A stretch of 64,000 nt of DNA from Gramella sp. MT6 (GTDB lineage Bacteria; Bacteroidota; Bacteroidia; Flavobacteriales; Flavobacteriaceae): NCBI RefSeq assembly GCF_019357415.1, contig NZ_CP048410.1, positions 1,302,001 through 1,366,000 of the forward strand, given 5' to 3'. This document shows, in pieces, positions 4,140 through 45,470 of the stretch. Made by a program: the position numbers and the translations under genes. Numbering within the stretch: position 1 is the stretch's first letter; every line of letters starts with the position of its first letter. The notes beneath the pieces are model-generated. The model worked only from the letters and a program-made list of their open reading frames with translations. It searched no databases and was not told the DNA's origin.

Positions 4140-5042
4140 CTAAAAATAGATTTCCTGGGCTAGCCTATAGGTATTGGCATGAGCTTCGATAATAAGTTTT
4201 ATATCTTTTGAGTAGCCGCCGCCCATACTACATTCCACCGGGATTCCCAGGTCATGGCAGGTTTGTAGTACAAACCGGTCTCTCTCTTTACATCCTGAAA
4301 TTGAGCAGGAAAGTCTTCCCAGTTTATCCGTTTCAAGAATATCGACTCCGCAGAGATAAAAAATAAAATCAGGTTGTGTCTTTTCAATTAGGTCGGATAG
4401 GGTAGACTTTAATTTTTTGAGATACTCAGCGTCTCCTGTCCCGTCGGTAAGTTCAATGTCAAGATCTGATCGTTCTTTTCTAAAGGGATAATTTCCTTTC
4501 CCGTGCATGGAAAAGGTAAAAACCGAATCATCATTCTGAAAGATCTCTGTAGTACCATTTCCCTGGTGGACATCAAGATCTACGATAAGGATCTTTTTTG
4601 CTAGGCCTTTCTCCTGAAGATATCTCGCTCCAATAGCCTGATCGTTGAGTAAACAGAAAGCTTCTGCGCGGTTGGTATAGGCATGATGTGTTCCGCCGGC
4701 TATATTCATGGAAATGCCATTTTCCAAAGCAAAATGACAGGCTTTTATAGTTCCGTCGGCAATGATCTGCTCGCGGTCCACTAATTCCTGCGATAAAGGA
4801 AACCCGGAAACGCGAATCTCCTTTTTTGTTAATTCGAGGTTCTTTAATCGCTTTACATAATCTGCTTCATGAACTTTCAAAATATGGGATTCCTCCGGAA
4901 AGTCCGGCTCAAAGAAATTGTTCTCGTCACAGGTGCCTTCATGTAAAAGCTGTTTTGGTAGCAGGTCATACTTTTCCATTGGGAAACGATGCCCTTCTGG
5001 TAAAGGATGCTTATAGATAGGATGATTGGCTATTTTTAGCAT
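4140..5042 (-). CDS. Histone deacetylase-like (class II-type) amidohydrolase
   Basis: This 300-residue cytoplasmic enzyme matches the arginase/deacetylase fold of bacterial HDAC-like proteins (AcuC, acetylpolyamine amidohydrolases). The catalytic His pair is GGTHHAY at His119-His120, and the zinc ligands sit in DLDVHQGNGT (Asp155, Asp157, His159). The C-terminal GGGY motif is present in SMGGGYSKD. It removes acetyl groups from lysine or small acylamides; the substrate is unknown. The start ATG at 5042 lies 21 bases past the stop of the upstream co-directional gene, but a TACATTTG box directly before the ATG suggests its own, nearly leaderless, promoter. Confidence 0.9.
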   Translation of the reverse strand: MLKIANHPIYKHPLPEGHRFPMEKYDLLPKQLLHEGTCDENNFFEPDFPEESHILKVHEADYVKRLKNLELTKKEIRVSGFPLSQELVDREQIIADGTIKACHFALENGISMNIAGGTHHAYTNRAEAFCLLNDQAIGARYLQEKGLAKKILIVDLDVHQGNGTTEIFQNDDSVFTFSMHGKGNYPFRKERSDLDIELTDGTGDAEYLKKLKSTLSDLIEKTQPDFIFYLCGVDILETDKLGRLSCSISGCKERDRFVLQTCHDLGIPVECSMGGGYSKDIKLIIEAHANTYRLAQEIYF

Positions 5043-40723: not shown

Positions 40724-43702
40724 TTAATTCCCAACTTTAAAAACGGTTTCCACCAACCTCGGATCGGTTTGGGTAGCCTGCCTGGATATCCATTTTACAT
40801 CTAATGAAATATAGCCAAGGTCATACATCACTTTTCCGAAACATTTATAGATACCCCGGCTCCTGAGCGGATATTTTTCAGCGACTTTAGGAAAAAGAAC
40901 CACGTCATAAATATCCCCGTCTACATCATAGAAAGTTCCAAAATACATGTATTTACCATTAGATGTGCCCGTCTTTCTCGAGTTTATAAGATTCCCATAG
41001 ATCTCAACGTCCTGGCCAATATGATCTTTAAGATCTTTTGCTTTGATAGTGCTACTAACAGGTTCTCGCAAGAGTTCAAAATGATTACAGAGAGGAAATC
41101 CCAGTAATTCCATCTGGTCATAGGCTTCTATAAGCTTTGAATATTCAAATTCCGGAAGCTCAAAATCTCTGTGCTGGGGTTTGAATAGTAAAGCCTGGCT
41201 ACTTTTGGGTTTGCTATTATGAAGTTTAAAATATGCTTTCCATAAAAGTTCATGCTTGTCTATTCCCGTAAACCTAAAGGCATTGATCTTTAGTAAGAGG
41301 CTAAGCTGTTCAATAGAAATATAGATGCGATCTATAAAATCATCCAGTGATTGGAAAGGTCCTAAGAACTGCCTGTTCTCCAGGATCTGTTGAATGGTTT
41401 TAGCTTCCAGTTCTTTAATGTAGCCAAATCCCAGGTAGATGTCCTTACCATAGATCGTATTGGGATGATCACTTTTGTGGATACACGGAGCATGGATCTT
41501 ACCTCCACATTTTCTGATCTCCTGGATATACGTCTGCAGATCATAAAAACCGCCTCCGTTGTTAATAGCTGCGACCATAAATTCCAGCGGAAAATATTTT
41601 TTGAGATATAAACTCTGGTAACTCTCCACGGCGTAGGAGGCTGAATGCCCTTTAGGGAAGGCGTAACCGGCGAAAGAAGATATTTGTTCCCAGACCTCGC
41701 TTGTTAGTTCTTTACTGTAGCCTCTGTCTTTACAATTCTTTCTGAAGGTCTTTTCGATCTTCTCCATCTGTCCTTTGGAGGTTTTCTTTCCGCTCATTCC
41801 GCGGCGCAGCACATCGGCATCATCCAGGTCCAGTCCGGCGAATATGTGGGCTACTTTCATCACATCTTCCTGATAGACCATAACACCATAAGTATCCTTC
41901 ATGATCTTATACATGACAGGGTGCGCCTGTTTTCTGAGTTCAGGATCACGGTGCCTTCTGATAAACTCTTCTTTCATTCCCGCGCTGGAAACACCAGGCC
42001 GTATTACCGAGCTGGCCGCCACCAGGTTCATGTAATTGTTGGTTTGCAACCTGGTGAGTAGTCCGCGCATTGCCGGTGATTCTACATAGAAAACCCCCAT
42101 GCAGTCGCCAACCTTTAAAAGATCATTGATGGCAGGATCTTCCTTGAAAGCTTTGATGTTTTCAATATCTTCTATTTCTGCATCGGGCTGATTCTGTTTT
42201 ATGATCTCAATGGCATCAGTGATCTTGGAGAGTCCACGCTGGGCGAGGATATCAAACTTATGGATGCCCACATCTTCAGCAATGTTCATGTCTATCTGGA
42301 TAGTTTGAAAACCCTTCGGAGGCAAAAATGTTCCGGCATAATTAAATACGGAATCATTCAGGATAAGAATTCCGCCGGAATGAACACTCAGGTAATTAGG
42401 AAAGCCTTCTATAAGCCTGCTGTACTTGATCACCAGTTTTTCAAGGTGATCCAGTTGTTTATATTCAAAAAAACCTGAAGAAAGCTTGTCGATATTTTCT
42501 TTAGGCAGACCGAAGACTTTCCCCAGTTCCCGGGCAACGGCCCTGCTTTTAAAGGTCACGTAAGTACCCATCAAAGCAGTATTCTCATAAGTTCGGAAAA
42601 TATAATCGGTCACATCATTCCGGTCTTTCCAGGAAAAGTCGATATCAAAATCAGGAGGAGAACTCCGGTTGGGATTTATGAAACGTTCAAAATACAGGTC
42701 CAGTTCAATAGGATCTACATTGGTAATGCCCAGAATATAGGCGACGATGGAATTTGCCCCGCTACCCCGGCCTACAAAAGGATAATTCTGGGAGCGGGCG
42801 TAATTTACGATGTCGAGATTAATCAAAAAGTATGAAACGAACCCAAGTTTTATAATGGTATCAAGCTCTTTCTTCAGCCTTGTGCGGACTTCTTCACTGG
42901 CATCGGGATATTTTTCAGGTAATTTCTGATAACACAGGCTTTGGATCTTTTCTATGTCTTCTTCAGTACTTTTCCCGGCCACCAGTAAATTGCGATTCTG
43001 CCCGCGGCCAAATTCGAAATCTACATTACAGGAATCGATGAGGTTTTGAGTATTTTCAAGAATGTGGGGGAAATCTTCAAATTCTTTTCTGAGTTCAGTT
43101 TCCGGGATCATTTGATGAGAAAAGGAACCTTGCTCAGTTTCGGGAAGTTTACTTAGTAAAGTATTATTGTCTATAGCCCGCAACAGGCGATGCGCGTTAT
43201 AATCTTTTTTGTCCCGGAAACTCACCGTTTGAAGAACTACCAGTTTATCTTCCAGTTTTCTGTATACCGAAAATTTTAATTTTCTAAGGTTATCTATAGA
43301 AACGCCTATGAACTCATTGCTTCTGAAATCTTTCTTTTTCAGGGCCGCTATTTTTTCAAACGGATAAATAACAAAACAGTCGGGGAGGAGCGGAGCTTCG
43401 GTTTCAAATTCTTTTTTTTTATGTAGGTGGCTAGAGAGATGTTCATTCAACTGCCGGAAACCTTCATTATTCTTTGCAATCCCTATATATTTCTGGTCTA
43501 CTCCGTTTCTAAAATCGATCCCGATGATGGCTTTAACCTCTGTTTCTTTGTTTAATTTGATAAATTCAAGACAGGCTGAAGTGTTGTTGATATCGGTCAC
43601 CGCGAGTTGTTTTACTCCATTCTTTCGTGCCAGAGCACAGAGTTCCTGAACCGGAAATGTCCCGTAGCGTAAGGAGTAATATGTATGACAGTTTAAGTAC
43701 AT
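40724..43702 (-). CDS. DNA polymerase III alpha subunit-like (short DnaE2/error-prone type)
   Basis: The 992-residue C-family polymerase is shorter than replicative DnaE. The N-terminal PHP domain (CHTYYSLRYGTFP) has lost key metal ligands, for example TDH is TDI in LAVTDINN, so it should not proofread. The catalytic aspartates are intact in PDFDIDFSWKDR, and GRGSGANSIVAYILGIT is the polymerase palm signature. A helix-hairpin-helix and OB domain close the protein. The pairing with the dinB gene 151 bases upstream on the same strand matches error-prone translesion cassettes of bacteria. Confidence 0.9.
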   Translation of the reverse strand: MYLNCHTYYSLRYGTFPVQELCALARKNGVKQLAVTDINNTSACLEFIKLNKETEVKAIIGIDFRNGVDQKYIGIAKNNEGFRQLNEHLSSHLHKKKEFETEAPLLPDCFVIYPFEKIAALKKKDFRSNEFIGVSIDNLRKLKFSVYRKLEDKLVVLQTVSFRDKKDYNAHRLLRAIDNNTLLSKLPETEQGSFSHQMIPETELRKEFEDFPHILENTQNLIDSCNVDFEFGRGQNRNLLVAGKSTEEDIEKIQSLCYQKLPEKYPDASEEVRTRLKKELDTIIKLGFVSYFLINLDIVNYARSQNYPFVGRGSGANSIVAYILGITNVDPIELDLYFERFINPNRSSPPDFDIDFSWKDRNDVTDYIFRTYENTALMGTYVTFKSRAVARELGKVFGLPKENIDKLSSGFFEYKQLDHLEKLVIKYSRLIEGFPNYLSVHSGGILILNDSVFNYAGTFLPPKGFQTIQIDMNIAEDVGIHKFDILAQRGLSKITDAIEIIKQNQPDAEIEDIENIKAFKEDPAINDLLKVGDCMGVFYVESPAMRGLLTRLQTNNYMNLVAASSVIRPGVSSAGMKEEFIRRHRDPELRKQAHPVMYKIMKDTYGVMVYQEDVMKVAHIFAGLDLDDADVLRRGMSGKKTSKGQMEKIEKTFRKNCKDRGYSKELTSEVWEQISSFAGYAFPKGHSASYAVESYQSLYLKKYFPLEFMVAAINNGGGFYDLQTYIQEIRKCGGKIHAPCIHKSDHPNTIYGKDIYLGFGYIKELEAKTIQQILENRQFLGPFQSLDDFIDRIYISIEQLSLLLKINAFRFTGIDKHELLWKAYFKLHNSKPKSSQALLFKPQHRDFELPEFEYSKLIEAYDQMELLGFPLCNHFELLREPVSSTIKAKDLKDHIGQDVEIYGNLINSRKTGTSNGKYMYFGTFYDVDGDIYDVVLFPKVAEKYPLRSRGIYKCFGKVMYDLGYISLDVKWISRQATQTDPRLVETVFKVGN

Positions 43703-43742
43703 TTTTCAGTTCTCAGTTCTCGGTTGGCAATCTCAGTATTTT

Positions 43743-43852
43743 GTCATTCTGAACGCAGTCGAAGCATCTCATTACCCATTTTCAATTCTTCATTTTCAAT
43801 TCAGCTCGCCCTTCCTAAATCTGTTTATTGTTCATTGACCATTGTTCATTGA
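43743..43852. repeat. Dispersed-repeat core and two 14-base-period duplications
   Basis: GTCATTCTGAAC at 43743-43754 starts a sequence of the type GTCATTCTGAACGCAGTCGA seen between genes in Bacteroidota. Two separate duplications follow, each with a period of 14 bases: an 11-base word at 43778 and 43792, and a 12-base word at 43827 and 43841. No gene is present between dinB and the DnaE gene. Confidence 0.6.
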
Positions 43853-43853
43853 T

Positions 43854-45074
43854 TCATTGTTTCCTGTGCGCCAGCACCACCGGAGGTTCTCCGTTAAACG
43901 GATTCCCCATTCTGCCGATCGTCTTTGCATCCATCGAAATCGCCCGCATCACACTGTGTTCCCCAAACCGGTTCTTGATCCTGTCCAGTGAATCATAAAG
44001 ATTCAGCATCTCTTCAGAATCATCAAAAAGGTTGATCTGATAATGTCCGCCTACAAGCCCGCTGAAACGAACCCCAATAAGTCTTATAAGCAACCGGCGG
44101 GTATAAAGCTGGCGGAACAATTCTTCCACTTTTGGAATGAGGATATGATCTGCACTGGTGTAGGGGATCTTCACCTGCTTGCTGTAGGTTTGAAAATCTG
44201 AATACCTGATCTTGACACTTACATTCGAGGTGAGCTTGTTGCCTCGTCTTAACTGGTAAGCCAGGCTTTCGGCCATGGCAACGAGGGTGCCGTGCAGTCG
44301 TATCATGTCTATAGTATCCCGGTTAAAAGTACGCTCAGTAGAAATAGACTTGCGCTCATGGAAAGGGATGATGGGCGGATTATCAGTTCCGTGGGCTCTT
44401 TTCCAGATGGTTCGCCCATTCTTACCCAGAACGCTTTCAAGCACTTCTACGGGCATCTTCTGGATAGTTTCAATTCTTCGTACTCCCAGATTGAGTAATT
44501 TCTGAAAGGTTTTGTTCCCGATCATCGGGATCTTGTTAACGGCAAGCGGCGCCAGAAATCCTTTTTCGGTACCTGCTTCTATGATCTTCTGCGCATAGGG
44601 TTTTCCTTCTCCGGTCGCGATCTTTGAAACGACTTTGTTCTGTGAGAGTCCGAAAGAAATAGGCAAATGTGTTTCTTTCAGAATAGTTTCCTGAAGTTCT
44701 TTCGCGAACTGGGTAATTCCAAAAAACCGGTCCATTCCGGTGAGATCTGCATAAAACTCGTCTACACTGGCCTTTTCAAATGAGGGTACTTTACTGCGAA
44801 TGATCTCGGTGACTTCATGGGAGAATCTGGTATAGGTGGAAGCATTCCCTTTGATAACAACAGCCTGCGGACAAAGCTGCCTCGCGACTTTCATGGACAT
44901 GCCCGAGTGTACGCCGAATTTACGGGTTTCATAACTGCAGGCTGCTACCACACCACGGTCTCCCAGCCCGCCTACGATAAGCGGTTTGTTATTTAATTTT
45001 GAATCCAAACGCCTTTCTGCCGAAACAAAAAAGGTGTCCAAATCCAGGTGAATAATAGACTTTACATTTTTCAT
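43854..45074 (-). CDS. dinB: Y-family DNA polymerase IV
   Basis: The 406-residue translesion polymerase has the catalytic motifs HLDLDTFFVSAERR (N-terminal Asp-x-Asp) and ASVDEFYADLTG (Asp-Glu), the helix-hairpin-helix thumb region and the little-finger domain. QINLF near residue 345 fits the beta-clamp-binding motif. It copies damaged DNA with low fidelity. The upstream region carries three operator-like repeats over its promoter, implying damage- or repressor-controlled expression. It is the first gene of a pair with the short DnaE gene. Confidence 0.95.
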   Translation of the reverse strand: MKNVKSIIHLDLDTFFVSAERRLDSKLNNKPLIVGGLGDRGVVAACSYETRKFGVHSGMSMKVARQLCPQAVVIKGNASTYTRFSHEVTEIIRSKVPSFEKASVDEFYADLTGMDRFFGITQFAKELQETILKETHLPISFGLSQNKVVSKIATGEGKPYAQKIIEAGTEKGFLAPLAVNKIPMIGNKTFQKLLNLGVRRIETIQKMPVEVLESVLGKNGRTIWKRAHGTDNPPIIPFHERKSISTERTFNRDTIDMIRLHGTLVAMAESLAYQLRRGNKLTSNVSVKIRYSDFQTYSKQVKIPYTSADHILIPKVEELFRQLYTRRLLIRLIGVRFSGLVGGHYQINLFDDSEEMLNLYDSLDRIKNRFGEHSVMRAISMDAKTIGRMGNPFNGEPPVVLAHRKQ

Positions 45075-45079
45075 AAATA

Positions 45080-45128
45080 GGAATAATTCCTTTTAATTGG
45101 AAATATTCCAAAATTATGAAATTATTCC
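45080..45128. promoter_or_regulatory. Triple operator-like array (GGAAWWATTCC) before dinB
   Basis: Three 11-bp near-palindromes at 45080-45090, 45099-45109 and 45118-45128 have their centres exactly 19 bp apart. They surround and overlap the dinB promoter box (45109-45116), the arrangement expected for a repressor that binds cooperatively on DNA helical faces. Confidence 0.6.
45109..45116 (-). promoter_or_regulatory. Candidate -7 promoter box (TAATTTTG) of dinB
   Basis: Exact TAnnTTTG match between the second and third operator-like repeats; transcription would start near 45102, 28 bases before the ATG. Confidence 0.5.
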
Positions 45129-45236: not shown

Positions 45237-45470
45237 ATGAAAGGTTCTTCAGGTAAACGCAGGTTGGTAAAGAAATACGTATCAGAATTTATATTTTCAG
45301 AAAAGACGAGGTTCGTGCTGGACGGCACTAATTATCAGTTTTCTACTGATGAACCCGGAGGAAAATTTATAAAATTCCGCTTCGAAAGAGGTCCGCGCAA
45401 GAAAAAAAGAAAATTAGTTTTTAAATGCATTTATAAGATGATGAAGAATTTTCAGACTTCACTTAATTAA
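45237..45470 (+). CDS. Small basic hypothetical protein, 77 residues
   Basis: The product is strongly basic (GKRRLVKKY at the start and RGPRKKKRKLVFK in the middle), with a short beta-rich centre, and could bind nucleic acid; this is inference from charge alone. It is supported as a gene by a good downstream terminator at 45478-45503 and a clean non-overlapping position between dinB and the NTF2-like gene. I know no named family for it. Confidence 0.6.
   Translation: MKGSSGKRRLVKKYVSEFIFSEKTRFVLDGTNYQFSTDEPGGKFIKFRFERGPRKKKRKLVFKCIYKMMKNFQTSLN

Follow-up and report, generated by a model that had tools for sequence, protein, structure and literature searches.

The window, by which is meant the whole stretch of 64,000 nucleotides of Gramella sp. 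MT6 DNA that was analysed, carries dinB and a dnaE-type gene on the same strand (table 1). The dnaE-type gene is predicted to be, probably, the second gene of a dinB operon; in the 151-bp gap between the two (43703-43853) there is low-complexity AATGAACAAT-like DNA along with other repeat-like sequence. Against the NCBIfam error-prone-polymerase model the dnaE-type protein scores below the cut-off, and the name 'DnaE2' is therefore tentative. Among relatives, several loci of Mesonia and Zunongwangia had dinB-dnaE gaps of ~2-46 bp, and several of Christiangramia had gaps of ~142-979 bp; these values are approximate, being taken with a rough regular expression for the dnaE start that gave no value for many loci, and cover the remainder only. 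A small basic open reading frame of ~77 aa (45237-45470, + strand, translated by hand) is divergent from dinB, and no family match was found for it.

Upstream of dinB, TAATTTTG is presumably a Bacteroidota-type -7 promoter box (consensus TAnnTTTG). As claimed in the first-pass annotation, three repeats in 19-bp steps are present there and flank and overlap this box. On the dinB strand (45116-45109) the final G of the box is also where site 2 begins, and the box lies in the gap between sites 2 and 3. The count of three operators held in part: sites 1 and 2 are exact; in site 3 one half is broken, and the site is poorly kept in relatives. At the position of site 3, an exact GGA-N5-TCC was present in 0 of the 7 closest Christiangramia dinB promoters (L027-L031, L034 and L089), and the form seen in the window in 2 of the 7. 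Its dyad is altered, the same kind of change having abolished binding in published EMSA (PMC8565304), and the function of site 3 is doubtful.

Table 1. Coordinates of the genes, sites and paired-site promoters. Positions without a prefix are those of the window.
Feature	Location	Strand	Remark
dnaE-type gene	40724..43702	-	DNA polymerase III alpha, 992 aa
dinB	43854..45074	-	DNA polymerase IV, 406 aa
Operator 1, GGAATAATTCC	45080-45090		exact GGA-N5-TCC palindrome, 5 bases ahead of dinB start codon
Operator 2, GGAAATATTCC	45099-45109		exact GGA-N5-TCC palindrome, one base common with promoter box
Box TAATTTTG	45109..45116	-	putative -7 box of dinB, Bacteroidota-type
Weak copy 3, GAAATTATTCC	45118-45128		one half-site damaged (GGAATAATTTC on dinB strand)
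Repressor gene	G000:C1:359074-359838 (L010:1575-2339)	-	255-aa HTH_3 + S24 protein
Paired sites (i)	window		before dinB; centres 19 bp apart
Paired sites (ii)	L008		before umuD-umuC; centres 19 bp apart
Paired sites (iii)	L009		before PA0069-family radical SAM protein gene; centres 19 bp apart
Paired sites (iv)	L154		rSAM-link-UDG protein gene, then DUF4130 protein; centres 18 bp apart
Paired sites (v)	L153		exonuclease gene with RNase_T + GIY-YIG domains; centres 19 bp apart
Paired sites (vi)	L010		255-aa HTH_3 + S24 repressor gene; centres 31 bp apart

PMC8565304 (Nucleic Acids Res. 2021) describes non-canonical LexA repressors of Bacteroidetes with CI-like HTH_3 and S24 peptidase domains, one group of which, mainly in Flavobacteriaceae, binds GGA-N5-TCC. 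The predicted targets given there are dinB (often with dnaE), splB, a COG1573-COG4277 pair, umuDC, a GIY-YIG exonuclease and the repressor's own gene, with recA as a target in some species. In Salegentibacter agarivorans, EMSA with mutated sites established that GGA-N5-TCC is bound specifically, and mitomycin C induced error-prone polymerase genes and not recA, as measured by RT-qPCR. The first-pass annotation had called the dinB operator unrecognised; it is not, because the repeats match this non-canonical LexA operator, and motif and repressor were published in 2021. No further study of the GGA-N5-TCC operator was found in the open-licence literature searched.

Conservation and register of the dinB operators

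Conservation upstream of dinB in related species, which the first-pass annotation had set in advance as a test, was found for sites 1 and 2 and not for site 3. The comparison covered the best 80 of 276 dinB loci found, all from named genomes (81 with the window). At least one exact GGA-N5-TCC lay within 250 bp upstream of dinB in 49 of the 80. With the window included, an exact pair 19 bp apart was present in 47 of 81 promoters, a site fused to the box in 48 of 81, and the position of operator 1, 19 bp downstream of the box-fused operator, was kept in 38 of 81. Two loci with exact GGA-N5-TCC upstream of dinB and without a box-fused site or 19-bp pair (L081 and L082) were treated as chance, and one locus (L062), whose single exact site has a partner with one mismatch 19 bp away, was left out of the pair count. 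In the remaining 700 kb of the dinB loci there were eight pairs 11-60 bp apart, one of them at 19 bp, and four of the eight (19, 23, 42 and 43 bp) match the spacings seen among the operators of a Nonlabens locus. In that locus (L088:1815-5209) the repressor gene is divergent from an apparent operon of SRAP, a small ORF and dinB, and four exact operators (2610-2705) lie between the repressor gene and the SRAP-led row.

Measured from the start of the TAnnTTTG box, exact sites were found at +7 and +26 in 38 dinB promoters, at -31 and -12 in four, at -12 and +7 in three, at -54, -31 and -12 in two, and at +7 alone in one. Every position but -54 falls on one 19-bp lattice, of which lineages occupy different positions; in the window +7 and +26 are filled, with a weak copy at -12. 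This constant 19-bp register locked to the box is the less described part of the system. No such register was found in the passages of PMC8565304 compared here, which do not mention cooperativity and whose sole passage on spacing concerns half-site spacers.

Distances were also taken from site pairs in 23 relatives. Among 75 of the 98 forward pairs (those listed, from 16 of the 23 genomes, G111 in part), 42 were at 19 bp, 9 at 18 bp, 13 at 20-23 bp, 1 at 26 bp, 7 at 31 bp and 3 at 42 bp. The stricter GGAAWWWTTCC occurred as a pair in 13 of 100 family genomes (own genome included), with 21 forward pairs against 1 reversed; by hand count, 10 of the 21 were at 19 bp and 20 at 18-23 bp, within an allowed range of 13-41 bp. 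In repressor-gene promoters, spacings of 18-19, 22-23, 30-31 and 41-43 bp were seen. Because many pairs in relatives sit at other distances, the 19-bp spacing is preferred rather than obligatory. It fits repressor dimers lying side by side and suggests cooperative binding.

The 19-bp register could instead be inherited promoter sequence, or simple packing without cooperative contact between dimers, a reading that touches the spacing alone, is compatible with a non-canonical LexA repressor and has, in our estimate, slightly less than an even chance of being correct. The dinB promoters share descent, 33 of the 75 listed relative pairs are off 19 bp and the repressor-gene promoters vary too, all of which speaks for it; the filling of different positions of one lattice by different lineages speaks against it, as does the use of 19 bp by 4 of 6 unrelated promoters in the Gramella sp. 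MT6 genome (binomial 7e-5 under a uniform-spacing model). Since the dinB promoters are kin, these unrelated promoters of one genome are the more independent evidence.

The likely regulon and its repressor

A genome-wide scan gave paired GGAWWWWWTCC sites at six places, each of which precedes an SOS-type gene (table 1). This gene list fits the GGA-N5-TCC regulon published in PMC8565304, with the PA0069-family radical SAM protein taken here to be what earlier work calls the SplB-type protein (COG1533). The upstream region of recA has one single site. SRAP, although a published member of the regulon (PMC8565304), was rejected as a member in this genome, where its gene has no site within 260 bp.

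The repressor gene carries two operator sites in its own promoter, and its product shares 82% identity with the sole match in the genome of S. agarivorans DSM 23515, the strain used in PMC8565304, with the HTH region nearly unchanged; the dinB promoter of that strain likewise has an operator pair at 19 bp. The S. agarivorans homologue (L129) is presumably the purified published protein, its identity being taken from the strain and not from an accession. The Gramella protein keeps AAAGYP, GDSM and VLVKK (alignment with the homologue, read by eye), which are the expected Ala-Gly cleavage site and Ser/Lys dyad, and self-cleavage is predicted. No PDB relatives were found for it by sequence at E 0.01. 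Canonical LexA was rejected as the regulator, its DNA-binding domain (PF01726) being without a match in this genome in a search that was positive in 10 of 14 control genomes.

S24 matches in the genome number three only, namely UmuD, the 255-aa repressor and a further protein (L011:1691-2458) that likewise has HTH and S24 domains. That this further protein is the dinB repressor is very improbable: GGA-N5-TCC is nowhere in its 4.5-kb locus, TNNL takes the place of the catalytic serine motif GDSM, no Ala-Gly cleavage site was seen (both by eye), and across relatives the operators track the orthologue of the 255-aa protein.

The 255-aa repressor was followed in 38 genomes picked from the 80 dinB loci. 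An orthologue (61-100% identity) was present in 22 of 22 genomes with box-linked dinB operators, and 15 of the 16 genomes without them have just 28-36% homologues, the remaining one, Nonlabens, having a 53% orthologue. At least one GGA-W5-TCC lies within ~155 bp upstream of each of the 23 orthologue genes retrieved; among the seven loci of distant homologues (L146-L152), one (L149) has such a site beside the gene and the other six have none.

Some individual loci deserve record. In Gillisia sp. LH_M83 (L066:3121-4001) dinB and the repressor orthologue are divergently oriented, with four sites between them that they share, three exact and one weak. The Gillisia marina orthologue lies in two pieces and two frames of a draft assembly (G109:C19:187977-188739, the first piece being L144), from either a sequencing error or a broken gene, and one Cellulophaga repressor match contains a TAA; both are counted among the 22 genomes with an orthologue. 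GCTAC-N5-like sites were found by regular expression in 24 of the 80 dinB loci, at Polaribacter- and Winogradskyella-type promoters (e.g. L060, L063 and L065), and in a crude screen many of these loci had a divergent S24-type gene, one of which (L067:3169-3942) was confirmed as HTH_3 + S24. Such promoters possibly belong to the other non-canonical LexA group, with a diverged operator.

Single motifs are common. Allowing at most one mismatch, 16 matches lie in the window where 10.7 are expected, and 10 of 100 shuffles also reach 16; the looser GGA-N5-TCC has 24 occurrences in the window in all; and across the genome GGAAWWWTTCC occurs 34 times and its reversed pattern 39 times, so that enrichment of the single motif was dropped as evidence. 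The earlier statement that the motif is absent elsewhere in the window was nearly right, GGAWWWWWTCC recurring once, at 4486. A chance origin of the palindromes in AT-rich promoter DNA is nevertheless extremely improbable: pairs (4-24 bp between sites) were found at 6 places in the 3.77-Mb genome against 0 reversed and total 98 against 2 over the 23 relatives, and the 19-bp spacing is kept while the 8-mer separating the paired sites takes 25 different forms; conservation rules out a chance origin for sites 1 and 2, not for site 3.

A probable non-canonical LexA at the dinB promoter

The dinB repeats are predicted, with high confidence, to be operators of the Flavobacteriaceae non-canonical LexA, with the 255-aa protein as its repressor. 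The damage-response operator that the first-pass annotation had placed at dinB is well supported. Computed here were the sites, their conservation, the regulon, the co-occurrence of the repressor and the presence of its cleavage and catalytic residues. Binding to GGA-N5-TCC and induction by mitomycin C are carried over by analogy from the close relative S. agarivorans (PMC8565304).

The system resembles the GGA-N5-TCC group of PMC8565304 in operator sequence, in its HTH_3 + S24 repressor with cleavage and catalytic residues, in target genes, in its Flavobacteriaceae host and in having several promoters with more than one site. With canonical LexA (PMC8565304) it shares an S24 repressor of error-prone polymerase genes and autoregulation, with RecA-triggered self-cleavage presumed here. 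It differs from canonical LexA in that HTH_3 replaces the winged LexA domain, and in its operator. Phage lambda CI also has HTH_3-type and S24 domains and several adjoining operators over one promoter. The likeness to lambda CI lies in these domains and in the multiple operators side by side at a promoter; unlike those of CI, the operator core is shorter and the spacing closer at dinB, and any cooperative contact here is putative.

One repressor dimer, on operator 2, would abut the -7 box and probably cover the transcription start, and a second would sit on operator 1, 19 bp downstream; together the two would hold dinB, and probably dnaE too, off. DNA damage would lead, through RecA filaments, to self-cleavage of the repressor and so to expression of the genes. 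Of this scheme we infer binding at this promoter, the transcription start, cooperativity, co-transcription of dnaE and the RecA-triggered cleavage of the 255-aa protein. The array at dinB is genuine and conserved, and very probably serves an SOS repressor that had been described before.

More tentatively, and at a confidence falling a little short of even, the SOS repressor of Flavobacteriaceae may assemble on a box-registered 19-bp lattice (-31, -12, +7 and +26), with neighbouring dimers touching and the box forming a gap; lineages would gain or lose sites in register, and the number and position of sites would set the strength and timing of induction.

The likely regulon of the repressor consists of the six paired-site genes or operons and recA, which would place the translesion polymerases of this marine bacterium under a known, little-studied SOS repressor. 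The constant spacing and the common promoter register across genera suggest a rule, open to direct test, for the placing of a CI-like SOS repressor on Bacteroidota promoters.
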